This document shows, piece after piece, positions 35,956 through 64,000 of a DNA stretch of 64,000 bases. Source of the stretch: Bugulina stolonifera (taxonomy: Eukaryota; Bryozoa; Gymnolaemata; Cheilostomatida; Bugulidae). A program made the position numbers and the translations under genes. The notes under the pieces were generated by a model. The model saw only the letters and a program-made list of their open reading frames with translations. It did no database searches and was not told the DNA's origin. The stretch's first letter is position 1. Every line of letters begins with the position of its first letter. The DNA lies in contig OW285190.1 in assembly GCA_935421135.1 (NCBI GenBank), positions 8,318,501-8,382,500 on the forward strand, in the 5' to 3' direction.

Positions 35956-37320
35956 ATGGGTGTCCTCCAGAGAATCAATCCTTGCGTCACGGTGGAGATC
36001 ATAACAGTCTTTTTTAGCTTCACCCAATTACTATGATGCAGGTCACTCTCCAAGACCTACCATAACTTAAAATATGTCTACAGACCACAAACACAACTGA
36101 GCTCTTATGTCGTGACCAACAGTTCATAAGCACTCACAAAGAGATCGAGGGTCAGACATCATTGTGGAGCATGTATCTTAACATTGCGACTATACTGCCA
36201 GCCATTGTCACTGCCATACTGCTAGGCAGCTTCATCGACAAGTATGGTTTCGGCCTACCTATCAAGCTAGCTCTTATAGGCACATTTATAGGCTGTGCTG
36301 CAGCAACCATCGTGTCGATGATGTCACTCTGACACAAGTTTCTAATCATAGGGATGTTAATTATGGGTGCATGTGGACACTCACCTGCAATTCTAATGGC
36401 TGTGTATGCCTACGTGATAATGGACTCAAATGAAAAAGACAAGACATTTAGGATTGCTGTCGTTGGCTCGAGTTCAGCCATTGCTGTAACTATTGGTCTT
36501 GCTATAATGGGTCCGTTAACAGACAATCTAGGAGTACAATGGGTGTTTATCTTTGAAATGATAAGTATCGCCATTGCATTTGTTGACAGTCTTCTACGAC
36601 TACGTCCAGCTAAAAATCAACCGATAGAAGTTCATGACAAACCTTCGAAAAAATTTAAACAGATCTTTGAGATTAAAACATTGATATCGTATATGCGAGT
36701 GATGACGAAGCAGCGTGAGAGATCAAAGAGGTTGCATCTACATCTAATAACCATAGTCTTCATCCTATCGCTCTGTGCCTTTGTAGGAGCTGTGGACGTA
36801 GAGTTCTTGTATCTGACCGAAGAGAAAGGTTTCTCCATGACGTCTGTCAGCATGTTCATGAGTGTATCCGCTCTTCTTGCCTTCCTGGGTAGCATTGTAG
36901 GTACATACGTACTCAGCAATAAACTAGGCTTGCATTTAACTTGGATAACGCTTATTGGCTCAATTAGTTCTATCATTAAATATGCTGGATGCTCATTGGC
37001 CGATTCTATCACCGTATTGTGGATATTAAATGCATTTAAGACTTTTAGTACTCTGACCTCAGTTGCCGCAAGGTCATGTGTGAGTGGCTGTGTGGAACCA
37101 AGCGAAAACGGAACGATCATGTCACTTATGGCAGTGGTAGAAGCTCTATTTAGCCTTTTAGCAACCATTGCATTCAATGGGCTCTATCCTCTAACTCTAG
37201 CATCATGGCCGGGAATGCCACTCATGGTAGCAGCCGCATTGTGTGCATGTAGAATACCAATTCTAGGTTACATTAGATGGCATGAATGGAGACAAGATGA
37301 TGCAGGGTATTTTTTCAAGT
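35956..37320 (+). pseudogene. SLC46-like major facilitator transporter, broken
   Basis: SLC46 proteins are 12-helix proton-coupled transporters of folates and related solutes. The first ATG opens MGVLQRINPCVTVEI and a first helix, but that frame stops at about 36034. After a frameshift the family pattern resumes with SLWSMYLNIATILPA, LLGSFIDKYGFGLPIK and a second helix. An in-frame TGA at 36330 then interrupts it. From 36354 a long open frame covers the remaining helices, ending WPGMPLMVAAALCACRIP and a RWHEW tail. No introns interrupt the part seen, unlike the neighbours, which suggests a retrocopy or a decayed single-exon gene. A Polinton-like element is inserted about 100 bp downstream, and the long frame runs into it without a native stop. 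Confidence 0.65.
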
Positions 37321-37422
37321 TTTTAAACTGGGGTCTCCATAGGCCGGGGGTACAGGGGGCTGCCCAGGCCCCCTGGTGGGGTCCGGGGCAGCGCCTCGGC
37401 CGCCGGAGCATTTTCAGCATAA

Positions 37423-37428
37423 CTCACA
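37423..37428. repeat. Target-site duplication, left copy (CTCACA)
   Basis: CTCACA lies directly before the left terminus AGTAGTACAGTC and is repeated at 46166-46171 directly after the right terminus. A 6-bp duplication is the Polinton/Maverick signature. Confidence 0.9.
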
Positions 37429-37953
37429 AGTAGTACAGTCAGTGCAGATCTGCACAGACACCCGGCCATTTCCGCGTCGTATTAGCCCTAGATCCAAAAA
37501 CTCCCCGGGCGGACGACCATCCCACCCGCCCTCTCGCCCCCTCCCCTCCCCTAAACCTCACTCTATGTGCAAAGCCCTAGAACCTACTCTCCCCGATCGC
37601 GGGTGGGGTTTCAAAAACCTCATCGGCTGTTCCGCGGAACCCAGTCTAAAGAGCAAACCCCGCGCCCCGCCCTCGCCCCGTCCCAAGGCTCGGGCGAGGG
37701 GGCGCGCGCGTACGCGCGCGCCCCTCGCCCCGCGAACCCCACCCGTCCTCCCCTCTACCCGTCCCCGCCCCTCCCCACCCCCTCGCCTCGCCCTCCGCCT
37801 CGCGGCGGTTCTCGTTTGCGAGTCCAGCCGTGGCCCCACGCCGCCCTCCCCCGCCCATCCCCCACCCTCCCGCCCCAACGACCCGTCGCTGCCCTCGCGG
37901 CCGGACCGTCGGCTGGAGTACGGTGAAGCGAAGGAAAATACGGGTTAGAGTAA
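37429..37953. repeat. Left terminal inverted repeat of element A
   Basis: It starts AGTAGTACAGTCAGTGCAGA and matches 46165-45659 in reverse. It is very GC-rich, with C-runs and CpG-dense stretches (GCGCGCGTACGCGCGCGC at about 37711), in contrast to the AT-rich host. Weaker similarity continues to about 38035. The 12-base end sequence GACTATACTACT recurs at 38104-38115. Confidence 0.9.
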
Positions 37954-38115
37954 TGATATACGACTATAAAAAACGTGAGCGAGGGTAATGGTACACGAAT
38001 TTGTTTTAAATTTCAATACGTTCGAGAGTAATAGTACGGTGAATCGAAGGAAAATACGGGTTAAAGTAATGACAGGCTACGACTGTGCAGAATTTACGAC
38101 GCTGACTATACTACT

Positions 38116-38920
38116 ATAAGAAACTTACTGAGTGGTGGTGGTGGTTCCGGATGATTTCTTTGCCGGGAACTGTTGAGACTGAACTGGTCGGAGTGACACC
38201 GCACTCGCGTGCTCCTCCGTTCGAGCGCCCCCGGACCTCCGATGAAAGACTCGCGCCTTAGCCCTCATTTTCCCCGGACCCTCCCCTAGGGAAATTGCCT
38301 GTCCCCGTGACGAGCGGCGAAGGAAAGTGAAGGCGGTGGCTCTTCCGCGCTTCAAACCGTAGACTTCCCGAGGTGGTTAGCCGACAACATCCTCGCTCGG
38401 AGGGGTAGAAATAGATAAATGGGATAGATGGATGCTTGTCTTCTCATCATCATCGTCATCGCCATCGTCATCATCATCCTACAAATAGACCCGCCTCTAC
38501 GATGATGTCGCTGACTCTCCACCAATTTCTTTGACCACCGCGCCCACTTTCCCCCGGGTAGCAAACTCCGATAGGGAGAGAGCGCATCGTGCGCGTGCGA
38601 TATCACCCCCCCCCCACCTACGAATGAAGACAATAGAAGAAATGTGAACTGATAAAGGGTGAGTATGAGCGGAAGCTGCGCTAGTACCGTCTACCCCTTT
38701 GGTTTGGAGAGGTAAATGGTTTTTAATGTATTAGCTAGTGTTTTATTGCTCGGTTTTAAGGCTACAACCGGTAAACCCTCCGTTTTGAGGACGGAGACCC
38801 CTTACAATAGAGAGTGAATGTGAAAAAAATTATATGGGTATATGTACAAGGGTTATGATGCACTGTTCGTTTACTCTCCAATTTATCGAATGAAGTAGTC
38901 TCATCTCCGAGAAATAAGTA
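38116..38920. other. Stretch between left repeat and the polymerase stop
   Basis: On the minus strand two overlapping open frames (38633-38352 and 38355-38125) encode basic, low-complexity peptides. The first contains a run encoded by GATGATGATG-type repeats. I recognise no Polinton protein here. They could be remnants of a lost gene at the 3' side of the polymerase. Confidence 0.3.
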
Positions 38921-41900
38921 CTAGCATTCTATAGGACTCGTACTCACCCCGTCTTCTGCAACCTTCCGCTTACCATAGAAGTAGGTGAGTCCGGTCTTTA
39001 GCTGGGTGTAGCTATACGTTTGGTTTCCTCTTCTGATAAAACCCCGATTGTCCCATCTCACCGACTCCCCTGTCCTGAGCACGGAGAGGAACTTCTCTTC
39101 GGTAAGGGCGTTTCCTCTTTTGTTTAGTCCTTTCCTGCTATACTTGCTATCACCATCAGCTGACCAACAAAAGTATGTTTTTGAGTTGAGCGCGATGACC
39201 CCCCTCCCCCCGAAACTCCTCCTTAAACAGGCCGGGGGTTCGTGTTTCGTATCGTTGCACCTTCTCACAACATTCCCTCATCTCCCACTCTTGGCCGAGC
39301 ACCTTGGTCGTGATAAAGTCTCCCTTGTGCCTATCGCAGAAGGGTCTGGGAAACCATCTACCATATTCTCTGTAGAACTCTTCTTTTTTATCTTTTCGGA
39401 TGACCTCATCTATACTACGAGCACTCAGAGCCATGTAAGCGCTATCCGTTTCCATTTCTACGTACTCAAAGTCCTCTCTGCTGACGAATCTGTGAAAATA
39501 AAACGGACGAGTTGTAGGGGGGGGGGGGGGGGGGGTGGGGGTTGACACCAAAAAATAAATAGAGAAGAATTTGATAAAATCTTTGTATAGTCTAGTTATA
39601 CTTACCTATCCATAAAGTCGTAGTAGAACTCTAGCATTCTCAACTTGGCTCTCTGGAGGATGACGAATCCTACGACAGATGGAACATCCATTCGAATCTA
39701 AAAGAAAGAAAGAGAGAGAGTTTACCCTACCACTCAGAAAAAGTTTCGTCAAATTAAGAATCAAAATAAAAGAAAAAAAAAAAAGATTGTCAACACTTGC
39801 CTTTTTCTTGTGAAGCTCTATCTCAAAGTAGTTTTCATCAACTTCGTTGAGACTAGAAAAGTGCCTACTCCTCACTTTGACAGCCGCCTCCTCTACTGTC
39901 TCCACATACTTGACAGTCTTATGTTTCTCTTTATTTGTTATGGTCTTTCCGTAGGCTGAATTCCCAACGAGCTTGCTGGTGCTGGCCAAGAGGGCCAGGT
40001 CGGAGTCCACATCCCCCCTCTTCTTGCGTCTGAGACCGAAGAACCAAAGTCTTTGTAAATGGCTCGTGGGATAAAGTGAACGAACTGATAGACCCTGGTA
40101 ATTATCAAACCTTGATCTAGATACCATCTAGCCAGATCGGAGAGTAGTGTGATTCGCTCGCCAAAAAGACTCCCCACGAGCATTCGCTGAGGTCTCTTCA
40201 AGAATCCGTTCTGTTCGGCAAAAGCGCGCATGTGTTCGCTAAGGTGTTCTCTTCCCACGTTTATATTCTTGAAAATAGGTGCTATCTCAGAGAACTTCGC
40301 TTTTAGCTCTTCGGGTACGGAAATGTCACACTCCACTAAACCATAGTACTCTCCACTACGAATGTTATTGATTATCTTATCGAGGTTGACGTAACCCCTC
40401 TCCGGGTAGAGAGAAGAAAAGAAGATGGCGAGAAATGTCCTAACTTCTACATCCGAACGAACTCGCGCTTCCCACTCACACTGCCGAGTGGTGATGAGCG
40501 TATAGCCTAGAGCCTTGATGTAATCTTCTTTCCTTGCAGTGTCCACCCGGAGCTCTTCATTCGTCATGTTTCTGACACCTTTTCCGTTCCCTCCCAGCTC
40601 GCACTCGTGTCCATGCCAGTAGCAACCGTGGAATTGGTACACCGTCCGACTCTGTTCGCTATAACCATCCACTGGTAGGTTGTGACAGCCTATCCTCATT
40701 TCTCCTCCATTCTGTTGGTGAAGGATGACTTCTCCTCTCTTCCACGATTGGAACTCTAACCAACCATGCGCCACTTTGCTGAACTTTTTAATAGGTTCTA
40801 GAGCAAAGCCTCGGCTCTCTAGCCTCCGCCTGGGATAACCCGTAGGCAGTGGTGATAATCTTGCTCGCTCAATTCTTGCTGAGTCAGCGAGTTGAAAAAA
40901 CTCTCTCGGGGAGGGAGTCCATAATAATTCAACCTTCTCAGGGAATCTACCCAGTTGTAAGGAAAGAATCCCTTACTCTCTGACACGCCAAATGCCTTCA
41001 AGTATTTGGAGTAGTTGAAGCCCGGTGCCATAAAGTTGCATATGTCAAGGAACCTAAAACGTCTACTCTCCACGCAGGACATACTGTTAACACGCTTAAC
41101 GATGAAGACAAAATCTTCTCCCTCCTCCTCTTGTAGAGAGCGAAGCAAAGGTCCCTTTAGTATATTTAGGTCATACTTTTGTGAGTTGAAACCAACCACC
41201 GGAACGCTGGAGATGTGCTGTTCTAACTCTCTTTCTAATCCGGAGAGACCGGACTTCACCCTGTAAGTCGAGACGTTAGAGAACTTGTCGTCAGCAAAGG
41301 CTTCTTCTCTATCCGCCCGATCCGCAAGGAAAGTAGAGAGTCGCTTGCGTACATCCCGGAATCTTTCTCCGAACAAATCTCCTGCCACGTCAGCAATCTT
41401 TGCTATGTATTGGACGAATTAACGAATGCACTTCGTTCCATCCTTGCTGTCGACGCTCCTCACAAAACACTTGGCCTGCTCAAACCCCGGGACGTTAGAA
41501 CATACAGATATGCTCAGTAACTCGTGTCTTGCACTAAAAGTCATTGTGGAGGTGTTAGTTTGTAGGTTGTCTTTTGGCATGAAGCATTCAATATCATAGG
41601 TGATATAGTAGGGGTAGTATAAGAGGTCGAGGTTCACCACCTCTATTCCCGCCACTCGCTTGAGTTTTGTGAATATGGTTGGCGGGGGTCCAAACGTTCC
41701 ACCAGGGAAAACGAACACCGATGCCTCCTCTGGCGAGCACTTATGTCGCCGTAGGCTGGACAAACGTGTGAAAGCGCCATCGCACAACTTGCAGGTGAAA
41801 CATCTGGCAAACGAATCAACATTCTTTATCCAGCTGAAGTGTTTTTCGTACATGTTGACAAAGAGTTTACGGGCTTTGTTTCGTGCCCCAGATGACCAAA

Positions 41901-42970
41901 CTATCGGAGCTACCCCATCATCAGTTAGGCAGAAGACTATTATAGATATGTCAAAATGATCTTCCAAGGCCAGCAGATCACTCGCGCCCACCCCGGGAAA
42001 GTCTGACAAAGTTGATGAGGGTGGGGAAGAAGATCTAGATTGTCTCATGTATTGTTTAAACAAGTGATGTGTTGTGGTCTGAGAGGGGCGACGACAGCAA
42101 CATCCCTTCTTTGGGTCGCAGTTACAGTCATACATCATGGCCAAACATCTAAAGAAACACAATTTGTCTGGGTAGGGACGCGCACCTCCTCTGGCCCAAA
42201 AGTCTACATCTAGTGCTATCACATGTCGGTTGTTAAGTATGTAGTCTGGGAGTTTGCTCACTACACCACCCACCTTGCCAATCTCTAGGAGTTTATAGAT
42301 GTAGAATGTCAGATTTGCAATGTGACGTAAAACCCAAGCGGTGTTCGGTCTCCTTTGTGCTGACCTCTCTCTCAAGTCGAGCTCCTGCACAGATTCGCAA
42401 AACTCTCTCATCTCATTCTCTGCTCTGATCAGTCTTGGCTTGGGGAAGAACGCGGCATTGTTGCTTGATGAGTGAAAGTAGCGCAACTCTCCACTGGTCT
42501 TATGCTCGAGGATGACTCCAGCGCTACAGTTAATCTTCACAGTACAAGGCACTCTCTTCCACATCGCTCTCAATTTAGTCCACACCTCTTCATCTCCTTC
42601 ATCTTCACATTCCCCTCTCCACACTCGAACGTTGAGAATGTCTTCTACAGGACGAGAGTGTATTGTGGACCTGATAGAACTCCAATAGCGGGCTAGTAGC
42701 ACCCCCATCTCATCTCCCTCTTCAGGCTGTTGGAGGTTTGGACCAGAGAACATCATCAAACTTCTCTGCATCTCCCTCATCTTTTTCCGCCTTGGCCTCG
42801 CTATGAAATCGTCTCATGTGATGACCTAGCTTTCTCCTCCCATCAAAACATCCGCCACAAACCGGGCACTTGTGTGGGTGAGCCTGTGCATGCATTCTCT
42901 TCGTGTGCCTGTCTAGAGAAAACGCTGTTTTGAGAACCAGACCGCATAGTTGACAGGTGTGCTCGGCCTG
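38921..42970 (-). pseudogene. Protein-primed DNA polymerase B (Polinton pPolB), inactivated
   Basis: The family replicates element DNA from protein-primed ends. Order on the minus strand: two C2H2 fingers (42970-42744, TCQLCG and HKCPVCG), then the main body from 42780. Visible motifs are YITYDIECFM (exonuclease I), VVGFNSQKYDLN (exonuclease II), FHGCYWHGHECE, KLVGNSAYGKT (motif B), METDSAYMAL (motif C, where DTDS is usual), SKYSRKGLNKR and the ending DGVSTSP. Breaks are a frame change after the fingers, an in-frame TAA at 41421-41419, a junction near 40840, and frame changes in G-runs near 40025 and 39205. The 40840 junction jumps from the exonuclease/linker region to PTGYPRRRLESRGFAL and loses the region with palm motif A. 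Two introns fit: 39800-39698 (GC-AG, AAG/GCAAGT donor) and 39605-39490 (GT-AG). Without motif A it cannot be active. Confidence 0.9.
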
Positions 42971-42984
42971 ACGAGAGCTCTCCC

Positions 42985-43325
42985 CCCCTATAAAAATACG
43001 AAATAGTAGGGTGTAAGTTATTCTTTTACCTCATACTACTATTAGCAATCCACAATTGTTACCAACTACCTCATTTAGCACTAACCTTTTTTACTTGTTG
43101 ACATCTCTGATCAGGTGCTGACTAGTAGGTAGGTGTCTCTGTTTAGTCTCCCTATAAAAATATATATTAGTAGGGTGTGAGTTATTTTTTAGCTTGATAG
43201 CATTATATACAATAAACACTTCACAATTGCTGCCAATTACCCCATTTAGCACTAACCTTATGTTCTACTTGTTGACATCTCTGATCAGGTGCTGACTAGT
43301 AGGTGGTTGTCTCTGTTTAGTCTCA
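42985..43325. repeat. Tandem duplication of a 164-bp unit upstream of the polymerase
   Basis: Two copies (about 42985-43148 and 43149-43325) share CCCTATAAAAATA, GTAGGGTGT, TTAGCACTAACCTT and GACATCTCTGATCAGGTGCT. The copies differ at many sites and by small indels, so the duplication is not recent. The CTATAAAAATA boxes, read on either strand, could be part of promoters for the flanking genes, but this is a guess. Confidence 0.75.
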
Positions 43326-43436
43326 CTCTGTTGACTAGAGGCTGATTGTACATACTGCTAGAGTGAGAAACTCATATCTTAAATAGTAGTATTCAGTAGG
43401 CGGAGTTTAACCATTTACCCGCCCTTTGCAATACCA

Positions 43437-43836
43437 CCCCGATGCGTCCTGATGTCAATCCGAAGCCCCCCGATGCGTCCCGATGCCAATCCGAAGCCTC
43501 CCGATGCACCCCAATGTCAATCCGAAGCCTCCCGATGCACCCCGATGTCAATCCGAAGCCTCCCGATGCACCCCGATGTCAATCCGAAGCCTCCCGATAC
43601 ATCCCGATGCGCCCCGATGCGCCCCGATGTGAATTGACACATCGGGGCGCATCGGGATGCATCGGGGTGCATCGGGATGCATCGGGATGCATCGGGAGGC
43701 TTCGGATTGACATCGGGGTGCATCGGGAGGCTTCGGATTGACATCGGGGTGCATCGGGAAGCTTCGGATCGACATTGGGGTGCATCGGGAGGCTTCGGAT
43801 TGACATCAGGGTGTATCGGGACACATTGGGATTGGA
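43437..43836. repeat. Palindromic array of 31-bp units
   Basis: The left half has about six units of the form GATGCACCCCGATGTC + AATCCGAAGCCTCCC. The right half has the same units inverted, and they meet at 43632-43637 in a GCCCCGATGTG/CACATCGGGGC stem. Near the centre, shorter GATGCGCCCC units are added. The whole 400 bp could fold as one long hairpin. It lies between the polymerase (leftward) and the plus-strand genes (rightward). Confidence 0.9.
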
Positions 43837-44023
43837 TAATAAAAAGGGAGGAGTCAAGAAATGAGCAGTTGTATAAAGGGAGAGTGGGATCACAGTCTCA
43901 GCATTCAAAGTTCAACACATCACTACTGTACAGCTACACTACTACAATAGTACATTATCAATGGATACTGACAACATAGTCCAGAACCAAGAATAGTTAT
44001 TTGCGGGCTTAACAGACTCACAA

Positions 44024-44487
44024 ATGGATGGAATTATTGAAGAAGAAGAGTGCAGTCAGAAGAGGAAAGAAGAGGTGGATGCGTTAAAAGAGGCACGGAA
44101 GAAGGGGAAAATAATAGGAGTGGGGAGTGTTGCCCAAAAGGATCTTTCTAACATGGCGGACTCTCCGTCCTCCCCGGAGCGGGCCTCGGATAGGGGCGAG
44201 CCCACAACCTCCAAGAAGAAGAAGAGCCCAAAAGGAAAAGAAGTGAAAGGAGATGAAATCTGTGCTAGGAAAAAGAAGAAACCCCAGGTGATTGTAATAT
44301 CAGATGAAGAGAGTGGAGATGGTGATGATGATGATGGCCACGGAGCCGATACGGCTACGGAAGAAGTGGATGGTGGTGGTGAGGTGTCAAAGGGAAAAAA
44401 GCTACCAAGTCCCCTTGCAAGGGGAAGAAAAAGAGTGGAGGACTAAGCCTGGAGAAAGCTCGTGCAGTGGCAGCAACCCTAATGTAA
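44024..44487 (+). CDS. Charged acidic/basic protein of the Polinton-like element (frameshifted)
   Basis: The ATG at 44024 opens MDGIIEEEECSQKRKEE, then Lys-rich stretches (KKKKSPKGKEVKGDE, RKKKKPQVIVISDEESGD) and an Asp-run. In the strict frame it ends at 44446. One base slip at the A-run near 44400 restores a more sensible ending, GKKKSGGLSLEKARAVAATLM with TAA at 44487. The alternating acidic and Lys-rich blocks resemble nuclear DNA- or histone-binding tails. No family is recognised. The slip may be a mutation or a sequencing error in the homopolymer. Confidence 0.5.
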
Positions 44488-44584
44488 GTAGCCCTATTCG
44501 TATATCCATAAAACTCCGTACCATTTTTCTCCCGTTTAACCGCTTTGTCGGATCTATATACACCACTTTCGTTATTGTAGGAGC

Positions 44585-45310
44585 ATGGGAGCGGAGAAGA
44601 GGAGCTCTCTGCAGACAACGGTGAAGCTGTCAGAGCTAGAGCCAGGAACTGTGCTAGAAGTGAGTGGAGGTTCGGTGGTTGAAACGACATTCGGAAAAGC
44701 ATTCTTAGCCAGGGCAAGCTATGTGGATGGCAAGGGGATGAGACATTGCATCAGCTTTCACACCAACATTCGTCACGCCATGCCCAAGCTAGCGGATGCC
44801 AAAGAAGTGGAGCTAAAGGACCTTACCCTTCCACCTAGGATCATGGTGTACTTGGGGCAGCAGGAGACCGCTAAAGGACAAAACACATTCAACCGTATCG
44901 AGAGCGTGTGCTCCTTGCCAGGAGCAGCCATGAAAAAGCTGGCCGGTGACTTGAGAAAGAAGACCTTAGCCCAGTTAGAAGATTTTTTTCGAGTGCACAC
45001 GCTATCTTCATTCCCCGTTGGTTTTGTGCTGGTGGTGACCGCACTCCGACCCACGTACGTCCCAAGATGCGGTGATGGTGATAATGCGAGCAACTCCATT
45101 GCCACCTACGAGTGTCGGATTGGAAACGAAGAAAGAAAGGGAGAGGTCTTCCTTCCGGGACGTCTGGCAGTTTCGATGAAAGAGCTCCTCCCCTCCGTGA
45201 TGGTGTACAAGGGAGAGAAGACTTCCAAGAGCGGGAGAACATTCTACGATTGTGCCATTCTAGACTCCATCCTCGGCGAGCGTCTCCTCCCCGCCACTGC
45301 ACAGTTTTGA
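44585..45310 (+). CDS. Unrecognised 241-aa protein with an internal duplication (Polinton-like element)
   Basis: The open frame starts MGAEKRSSLQTTVKLSEL and ends LLPATAQF. Two halves look alike. Residues around 105-125 read PPRIMVYLGQQETAKGQNTF and residues around 205-225 read PSVMVYKGEKTSKSGRTF. Each is preceded by beta-rich sequence with a Val/Leu/Gly pattern (VLEVSGGSVVETTFGKAF; FVLVVTALRPTYVPR). Short beta strands with Lys/Gly turns suggest an OB-like fold and possibly single-stranded DNA binding; this is inference only. A TTATTGTAG acceptor-like site lies just before the ATG, so a 5' exon ending at 44483 is possible, but the frames then do not match the charged ORF. The second element copy preserves the same last codons and stop (63975-64000). 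Confidence 0.6.
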   Translation: MGAEKRSSLQTTVKLSELEPGTVLEVSGGSVVETTFGKAFLARASYVDGKGMRHCISFHTNIRHAMPKLADAKEVELKDLTLPPRIMVYLGQQETAKGQNTFNRIESVCSLPGAAMKKLAGDLRKKTLAQLEDFFRVHTLSSFPVGFVLVVTALRPTYVPRCGDGDNASNSIATYECRIGNEERKGEVFLPGRLAVSMKELLPSVMVYKGEKTSKSGRTFYDCAILDSILGERLLPATAQF

Positions 45311-45339
45311 GGCAAGAACTTTTGTCATTCACACTCATT

Positions 45340-45650
45340 CGTGTCTACTTATCAATTGATTTTATATTATTACTCTCAAACTCGTGTATCATTAGCCTTA
45401 CTCATATTTTTCATAGTCGTATATCGAGTTTTTATCGATTGATTTTATATTATTACTCTCAAACGTATTGAAAATTAAAACAAACTCATGTATCATTACC
45501 CTTACTCATATTTTTCATAGCCGTATATCAGGTTTTTTATCGATTGATTTTATATTATTACTCTCAAACGCATTGAAAATTTAAACAAACTCGTGTATCA
45601 TTACCCTGACTCATATTTTTCATAGTCGTATATCATTTATTCTAGAATAC
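45340..45650. repeat. Subterminal tandem repeats of about 105 bp
   Basis: Units begin ATCGATTGATTTTATATTAT and contain TACTCTCAAACG, CGTGTATCATTACCCTTACT and TTCATAGTCGTATATC. Starts at 45351 (short, 83 bp), 45434 and 45539. The first unit lacks about 22 bp. Element B carries the same array in reverse, with at least one unit more (63545-63950). Confidence 0.85.
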
Positions 45651-45658
45651 ATCACACA

Positions 45659-46165
45659 CCATTACTCTAACCCGCATTTTCCTTCACTTCACCGTACTCC
45701 AGCCGACGGTCCGGCCGCGAGGGCGGCGACGGGTCGTTGGAGCGGGAGGGCGGGGGATGGGCGGGGGAGGGCGGCGTGGGGCCACGGCTGGACTCGCAAA
45801 CGAGAACCGCCGCGAGGCGGAGGGGAGGGGGTGGGGAGGGGCGGGTGGAGGAGAGGACGGGTGGGGTTCGCGGGGCGGGGGGCGCGCGCGCGTACGCGCA
45901 CGCCCCCTCGCCCGAGCCTTGGGACGGGGCGAGGGGTTTGCTTTTTAGACTGGGTTCCGCGGAACAGCCGATGAGGTTTTTGAAACCCCACCCGCGATTG
46001 GGGGGAGTAGGTTCTAGGGCTTTGCACATAGAGTGAGGTTTAGGGGAGGGGAGGGGGCGAGAAGACGGGTGGGGTGGTCGTCCGCCCGGGGAGTTTTTGG
46101 ATCTAGGGCTAATACGACGCGGAAATGGCCGGGTGTCTGTGCAGATCTGCACTGACTATACTACT
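45659..46165. repeat. Right terminal inverted repeat of element A
   Basis: Inverse of 37429-37953 with small indels, ending GTGCAGATC...TACTACT at 46165. Target duplication CTCACA follows at 46166-46171. Confidence 0.9.
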
Positions 46166-46171
46166 CTCACA

Positions 46172-62985: not shown

Positions 62986-63544
62986 AGTAGTATAGTCAGT
63001 GCAGATCTACACAGACACCCGGCCCTTTCCGCGTCGTATTAGCCCTAGATCCAAAAACTCCCCGGGCGGACGACCACCCCACCCGTCCTCTCGCCCCTCC
63101 TCTCCCCTAAACCTCACTCTATGTGCAAAGCCCTAGAACCTACTCCCCCCCCATCGCGGGTGGGGTTTCAAAAACCTCATCGGCTGTTCCGCGGAACCCA
63201 GTCTAAAGAGCAAACCCCTCGCCCCATCCCACGGCTCGGGCGAGGGGGCGCGCGTACGCGCGCGCCCCCCGCCCCGCGAACCCCACCCGTCCTCCCTCCA
63301 CCCGTCCCCGCCCCTCCCCACCCCTCCCCACCCCAAACCCCTCCGCCTCGCCCTCCGCCTCGCGGCGGTTCTCGTTCGCGAGTCCAGCCGTGGCCCCACG
63401 CCGCCCTCCCCCCGCCCATCCCCCTCCCCCGCCCTCCCGCCCCAACGACCCGTCGCGACCCTCGCGGGCGGACCGTCGGCTGGAGTAGGGTGAAGCGAAG
63501 GAAAATACGGGTTAGAGTAATGGTGTGTGATGTATTCTAGAATA

Positions 63545-63950
63545 GATGATATACGACTATGAAAATATGAGTCAGGGTAATGATACACGAGTTTGTTTTA
63601 ATTTTCAATGCGTTTGAGAGTAATAATATAAAATCAATCGATAAAAAACTTGATATGTGACTACGAAAAGTATGAGTAAGGGTAATGATACGCGAGTTTG
63701 TTTTAATTTTCAATACGTTTGAGAGTAATAATATAAAATCAAGCGATAAAAAACTTGATATACGACTATGAAAAATATGAGTAAGGGTAATGATACACGA
63801 GTTTGTTTTAATTTTCAATACGTTTGAGAGTAATAATATAAAATCAATCGATAAAAACCGATATACGACTATGAAAAATATGAGTAAGGCTAACGATACA
63901 CGAGTTTGAGAGTAATAATATAAAATCAATTGATAAGTAGACACGAATGA
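63545..63950. repeat. Subterminal 105-bp repeats of element B
   Basis: Three full units and one short unit, each with TACGACTATGAAAA, AGTAAGGGTAATGATACACG and AGAGTAATAATATAAAATCA. The full units are very similar to each other and to those of element A. Confidence 0.85.
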
Positions 63951-63974
63951 GTGTGAATGACAAAAGTTTTTGCC

Positions 63975-64000
63975 TCAAAACTGTGCAGTGGCGGGGAGGA
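63975..64000 (-). CDS. 3' end of the duplicated-domain protein of element B
   Basis: Only the last codons lie in the window: they read LPATAQF then TGA, the same ending as the protein at 44585-45310. It shows that this gene is a shared part of both element copies. The rest is beyond the right edge. Confidence 0.7.

Follow-up and report, generated by a model that had tools for sequence, protein, structure and literature searches.

An S1 element and its features in the window

The window analyzed here is a stretch of 64,000 bp from the bryozoan Bugulina stolonifera (positions 8318501-8382500 of contig OW285190.1, here C4, in an assembly of 234,951,659 bases and 27 contigs). It contains an element of 8737 bp at 37429-46165 which, judged by comparison with other genomic copies, is an old, damaged member of a transposon family designated S1. 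Our results suggest that S1 is one of at least three separately inserted segments (S1, S2 and S3) among which the genes of a single Polinton are divided. The termini of the window element, AGTAGTACAG at 37429 and CTATACTACT at 46165, form 5'-AG...CT-3' tips. Its terminal inverted repeats (TIRs) of approximately 0.53 kb are 92% identical over 529 alignment columns, and it is flanked by a perfect 6-bp target-site duplication (TSD), CTCACA (Table 1). The size of 8.7 kb and all of these end features had been named in an initial annotation of the window and were borne out by measurement.

The gene content agreed only in part with that annotation. A gene for a B-family DNA polymerase (PolB) is indeed present on the minus strand, but in the window copy it is no longer open: it contains an in-frame stop (41419-41421) and further frame changes and has lost 494 bp at about 40847 relative to the S1 copy L031, a gap that by eye covers what we take to be the polymerase motif A region. 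Coding sequence is likewise present on the plus strand; however, the two genes proposed there appear to be the exons of a single gene, with a GTAAGT donor at 44484 and an AG acceptor at 44579-44580. Both signals are also found in L031, an open copy in which the exon phases, worked out by hand, are compatible, and the plus-strand side of S1 is probably a single gene with two exons. In the window, exon 1 carries a stop (43994-43996) and a frame change. The central palindrome varies in size among S1 copies, and a similar palindrome is present in S2. A second copy with the same gene had also been postulated. It is an S1 element with its right end at 62986, but no more than the final 23 bases of this gene lie inside the window, which ends at C4:8382500, the gene itself spanning C4:8382478-8383200.

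Table 1. Features of the S1 copies in the window (positions within the window unless a contig is given).
Feature	Position	Strand	Basis or remark
Left TSD copy CTCACA, 6 bp	37423..37428		perfect match to right copy
S1 copy, decayed, 8737 bp	37429..46165		ends, TSD, comparison with L031 and L032
Left TIR	37429..37955	+	inverted-repeat alignment
PolB gene, broken; 3' part probably with introns	38921..42813	-	frames and comparison with L031
Two C2H2 zinc fingers	42722..43030	-	in L031, same frame as PolB start
Central palindrome, 384 bp, ~31-bp units, between divergent genes	43438..43821		size varies among copies
Exon 1 of plus-strand gene, acidic, lysine-rich	43961..44483	+	broken here
Exon 2 of plus-strand gene, open frame of 241 amino acids from 44585	44581..45310	+	two weakly repeated halves
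Right TIR	45660..46165	-	inverted-repeat alignment
Right TSD copy CTCACA, 6 bp	46166..46171		perfect match to left copy
Right end of second S1 copy, leaving the window	62986..64000	-	C4:8381486-8391164, 9679 bp, TSD GTAGTA

An open frame at 36333-37433, which by eye resembles a membrane transporter, reaches the insertion site of the element.

S1 copies and proteins across the genome

The whole genome was searched with the protein of 241 amino acids and for intact polymerase copies, as the initial annotation had advised. The resulting lists of gene copies, here and below, hold the best-scoring copies and are biased toward intact ones. For the 241-amino-acid protein the best 150 of 340 candidates were scored, and 149 of the 150 contain no stop. 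For the N-terminal piece of PolB the best 91 of 643 candidates were scored; an open frame of at least 1238 amino acids was reported for 83 of these 91 copies, a stop inside the match for one of them, and the window copy reports 464 amino acids. A listed copy of the plus-strand gene is located within 8 kb of 72 of the 91 PolB copies, always on the opposite strand (72/72). The typical S1 element of approximately 9.65 kb thus carries PolB and one plus-strand gene, probably of two exons.

The ends of S1 were examined in 20 copies, all among the 30 best-scoring ones. Both ends were found in 17 of them, with lengths of 9156-9950 bp and a perfect 6-bp TSD in 15; the exceptions are L003, where one base differs, and L005, where no match was seen. 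For the remaining three (L006, L007 and L008) one or both ends were not seen in the stretch examined. L031 aligns with L032 at 97.6% identity over 9671 columns. Within each of these two copies the left and right TIRs, in the part examined, agree at 99.8% (L031) and 98.3% (L032); the window element, with 92%, accordingly looks older. Because many open copies with measured ends and long PolB frames exist, S1 is a propagating family, as had been supposed. The reading as a single deleted copy is ruled out by the 149 stop-free proteins, the 17 mapped copies and the 83 long PolB frames, and a further 46 pairs of tips were found on contig C1 (see below). Two S1 copies with TIR pairs that put them at 12.3 and 13.4 kb were considered as full-length parents and rejected, their extra sequence being located near the right TIR. 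In the right parts examined, no frame of more than 150 amino acids lies entirely within this extra sequence; in one of the copies, L053, a frame of 152 amino acids crosses from the insert into the TIR.

Exonuclease and polymerase motifs, which we presume to be those of the family, were recognized by eye in S1 PolB. Its best relatives elsewhere are at most 43% identical among the matches listed. The contigs that bear three of the eight best ones (41-43% identity) measure 9.1, 8.7 and 9.2 kb, which is near the size of S1, and those of the other five are shorter; the three relatives are possibly S1-like segments of another species. No relative in viral contigs was confirmed. An OTU domain in the N-terminus of PolB, considered at one point, is not claimed, as the 60 listed of 119 matches from a PDB profile search were to zinc-finger stretches. 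Inspection by eye of the frames of the window copy and L031 revealed no rve integrase, double-jelly-roll capsid, packaging ATPase or protease, and no match to rve, ATPase or protease was obtained when nine window frames were compared with Pfam.

The 241-amino-acid domain has no significant match in Pfam, PHROGs or the PDB, and a search of a protein collection gave a single relative, which is near-identical. The score of its internal repeat was equalled by 3 of 2000 shuffles, and the product of the plus-strand gene is perhaps a single-stranded DNA-binding protein, if the two halves are read as two OB folds. A structure model made from the single sequence was uninformative (pLDDT 32).

S2, S3 and the separation of the segments

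A genome search for the packaging ATPase (Pox_A32) gave 10 matches and led to a conventional Polinton, family A. Its element at C1:4278024-4293072 (L063 and L064) is 15,049 bp long with the TSD TAATAT and encodes an open PolB of 1381 amino acids (DNA_pol_B_2, 95 bits), an integrase of 310 amino acids (rve, 36.6 bits) and an ATPase. Six copies of the integrase are 97-100% identical. The initial annotation had named, as a case against a separate compact lineage, full copies of 15-25 kb that include integrase and capsid genes; in this genome such a case is provided only by family A, a different family with different TIRs (its tip matches that of S1 at 12/18 and 20/34 bases).

When the genome was searched with the family A integrase, the best 128 of 329 candidates were scored, and 103 of them form a near-uniform group with frames of 341-359 amino acids (most of 359) and 26-27% identity to the query. 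These belong to S2, an element of approximately 10.7 kb, which was read in place in the copy made up of L065 and L087 (10.7 kb) and in L066 (9.6 kb). The S2 integrase combines an rve domain (44.5 bits) with a chromodomain (28.7 bits). A protein of 225 amino acids is a packaging ATPase (Pox_A32, 28.4 bits), and one of 196 amino acids is a protease candidate with a weak match to the adenovirus protease (Peptidase_C5, E 0.14, below the cut-off). In the PDB, the structure model of a protein of 448 amino acids (pLDDT 85) is matched best by capsid proteins of the double-jelly-roll type, from an iridovirus, PBCV-1, Sputnik and mavirus (TM-scores of about 0.5-0.65), and on this model the protein is a predicted double-jelly-roll capsid protein. 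For its gene the best 94 of 269 candidates were scored, all 94 being identical over the 448 amino acids and open. Relatives elsewhere comprise one same-sequence match (100%) and others of at most 51% identity among the matches listed. The best match of the model in BFVD is R9XLG5, an uncharacterized protein filed under Cotesia bracovirus (26% identity, TM-score 0.37).

A frame of 451 amino acids and others in S2 obtained no identity from Pfam. No polymerase was detected by Pfam in ten S2 frames, and none of the frames longer than 110 amino acids in two copies is PolB-like. Eleven S2 copies were examined for their ends; the four with both ends have perfect 6-bp TSDs (AATGTG, CACCAG, TATGTC and AACAAC), and in the other seven one end lies outside the stretch examined. 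The copy with the TSD AACAAC (L066:708-10000 with L085, 9608 bp) has no S1-like region and is useful for dating the recombination described below. The integrase search also listed further Polinton-type groups with frames of 356, 361, 365, 369, 373 and 383 amino acids, with 2-4 rows per group, and one row each for frames of 315 and 395. A search for a helper integrase with PF00665 alone was unusable: many of the best 150 of 986 candidates had frames of more than 1000 amino acids and were taken for retrotransposons.

A 160-bp query from the S2 TIR gave 40 scored matches of full identity, out of 793 candidates and all located on C1, and some of the resulting TIR pairs of approximately 9.5 kb contain no listed integrase. 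One of these pairs, C1:3987912-3997479 (9568 bp; TSD AACACG, perfect in this one copy with both ends), represents S3. S3 carries an exon with ankyrin repeats (Ank, 25.9 bits; best 150 of 200 candidates scored), a palindrome of its own and a frame of 485 amino acids without a Pfam match.

The three elements have their ends in common. The 18-bp tip AGTAGTAYAGTCAGTGCA occurs 680 times in forward and 699 times in reverse orientation in the genome, while the reversed control sequence gave 0 and 0 occurrences. By simple arithmetic this corresponds to about 690 elements and about 7 Mb, or roughly 3% of the genome. The terminal 60 bp are identical between S2 (L087) and S3 (L091), and the S1 tip (L031) matches those of S2 and S3 at 18/18 and 30/34 bases. 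In addition, S1 and S2 (L065 and L087) have in common about 1.1 kb at 88% and 285 bp at 91.5% identity, covering the palindrome, the intergenic region and the first part of the plus-strand gene and adjoining the capsid module. We read this sharing as a probable recombination between segments, apparently a later event, because the older S2 copy L066 is without the S1-like region.

The first 100 places of the tip, all on C1, were paired and classified by the listed gene copies. The 46 pairs comprise 15 of S1, 13 of S2 (12 by integrase, including L090 added by hand with its broken frame, and one moved by the capsid list), 7 of S3 and 11 unassigned; no mixed pair was found, a mixed pair being detectable only if both of its genes are among the listed copies. 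Further segments may exist. The polymerase-bearing element without capsid genes that had been proposed from the window is thereby seen as a class of its own among the assigned pairs. As 13 of 15 S1 pairs measure 9.3-9.8 kb and 10 of 12 S2 pairs 10.6-10.9 kb, most assigned pairs have no room for the S1 and S2 modules together. One unassigned pair, at C1:14505550-14505589, is 40 bp in total: two 18-bp tips face each other across 4 bp, perhaps a remnant after loss of everything between them.

We also determined how often the 103 S2 integrases are near a listed copy of PolB or the plus-strand gene, leaving out 25 of the 128 rows (family A and other groups). There were none within 6 kb, 1 within 9 kb, 5 within 12 kb and 8 within 16 kb, compared with means of 1.0, 1.3, 1.8 and 2.2, respectively, for random placement. 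One close case, C1:14183858-14220827, consists by its tips of three separate adjacent elements.

A proposed multipartite Polinton, its alternatives and known systems

S1 and S2 jointly provide PolB (S1, by motifs) and an integrase, an ATPase and a capsid fold (S2), not as one contiguous element of 15-25 kb but as complementary genes on separate segments with common terminal sequences. We consider it likely (at a probability of roughly 75%) that S1, S2 and S3 constitute a multipartite Polinton of at least three segments that complement each other in trans. PolB from S1 would copy any DNA bearing the common tips by protein priming, the S2 integrase would insert the copies, and S2 capsids may package them. 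According to PMC11071308, eukaryotic protein-primed PolBs, including those of polintons, possess domains at the N-terminus, one of which (D1) is a homologue of terminal proteins; protein priming is assumed for S1 PolB because it is a trait of this family. The earlier proposal that the compact element borrows its integrase from full-length relatives would hold in so far as supply in trans is probable, but the likely supplier is mainly the abundant S2, not a full-length relative. As a speculation, S3 might be an accessory host-interaction segment that modulates host defence. With slightly less assurance we regard the system as the first multipartite Polinton, that is, an integrating transposon with a double-jelly-roll capsid and at least three separately inserted, co-amplified linear segments that recombine with each other, possibly including an accessory segment for interaction with the host.

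Several observations weigh against this interpretation. S1 PolB scores 16.7 bits with DNA_pol_B_2, below the cut-off of 25.8. The number of S2 integrases within 16 kb of S1 genes was reached in 0 of 200 simulations, and this excess therefore counts against full independence of the insertion sites. Almost a quarter of the C1 tip pairs (11/46) are unassigned, and mixed pairs are visible only through the listed genes. S2 copies are not all intact, the integrase frame of L090 being broken, and family A could serve S1 as an alternative helper. The two remaining points, the divergence of the TIRs beyond the tip and the existence of some long tip pairs, bear directly on rival explanations.

Beyond the tip, the S1 TIR matches that of S2 and S3 at only 42/60 bases, and with family A a complete Polinton coexists in the genome. 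Both facts would suit a real virus, either S2 or an unseen exogenous one, that has its own PolB elsewhere and whose tips are copied by S1 and S3 as hitch-hiking satellites. However, the two S2 copies read contain no PolB-like frame above 110 amino acids and ten frames gave no polymerase in Pfam, while the long PolB frames in 83 of 91 listed S1 copies are unlike a passive satellite; we regard this explanation as unlikely. Much the same can be said, and more firmly, of the possibility that the three elements are internal-deletion derivatives of a larger monopartite Polinton that still exists. It could account for the sequence common to S1 and S2 (about 1.1-1.5 kb, with the start of the plus-strand gene in it) and for three long tip pairs, two with an integrase (12.1 and 13.6 kb) and one with ankyrin (15.0 kb), whose contents are known by the listed genes only. 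Yet none of the 46 C1 pairs is mixed among the listed genes, the extra sequence of the 12.3- and 13.4-kb S1 copies near the right TIR has, in the parts examined, no frame above 150 amino acids that lies entirely inside it, and the S1-like region is absent from the older S2 copy L066, so that we consider such an origin very improbable. Least probable of all is an S1 that moves autonomously, as a replication-only transposon whose plus-strand gene or PolB N-terminus provides a novel integration enzyme. The 241-amino-acid domain, with its one near-identical relative and no significant match in Pfam, PHROGs or the PDB, would leave room for such an enzyme, but S1 has its tip and 6-bp TSDs in common with S2, the carrier of a Polinton-type integrase. 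The multipartite Polinton is hence the interpretation that we prefer.

In existing descriptions a Polinton is one element, with polymerase, integrase and capsid genes of its own. If the proposed interpretation is true, multipartite organization extends to the double-jelly-roll lineage of double-stranded DNA elements, by way of elements that share only their tips and a central stretch, in parallel to segmented bidna-like viruses with a related PolB. Theories on the origin of multipartite genomes could then be tested on hundreds of insertions within one genome. A literature search at the level of titles and abstracts, with most subscription papers outside reach, found no segmented, split or multipartite Polinton, and a similar search for bryozoan Polintons found no segmented one. 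The strings 'Polinton' and 'transpos' do not occur in the main text of the paper on the B. stolonifera genome (PMC10213821), nor do 'Maverick' and 'Polinton' in a paper on the Flustra foliacea genome (PMC13326412).

The segments resemble Polintons/Mavericks in their TIRs of at least about 0.5 kb, 5'-AG tips, 6-bp TSDs, PolB, rve integrase, Pox_A32-type ATPase and double-jelly-roll capsid. In contrast to monopartite Polintons, the modules are spread over several elements, each 9-11 kb long, there is a segment that bears ankyrin repeats, and no element with the full set and these tips was seen. Polydnaviruses package DNA circles and have ankyrin genes. The bracoviruses are described as having a double-stranded DNA genome in segments, of which an animal genome contains proviral copies (PMC1919376, PMC2646287), whereas the Bugulina segments are linear TIR elements with their own PolB and integrase.

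The nearest precedents for a segmented Polinton are bidnaviruses and Vesanto virus. Bidnaviridae (Bombyx mori bidensovirus) have two linear single-stranded DNA segments in separate capsids and a PolB traced to Polintons, according to PMC4061559. They differ in their single-stranded DNA and parvovirus-derived capsid from the system described here, whose capsid is predicted to be of the double-jelly-roll type and which combines an rve integrase with chromosomal copies in the hundreds. The Drosophila Vesanto virus has maybe up to twelve segments, with PolB-like proteins on some and similar TIRs on many; it is described as a bidna-like single-stranded DNA virus, and the available part of the report mentions neither chromosomal multi-copy segments nor a double-jelly-roll capsid (PMC8363768), both of which are features of the proposed multipartite Polinton of B. 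stolonifera.

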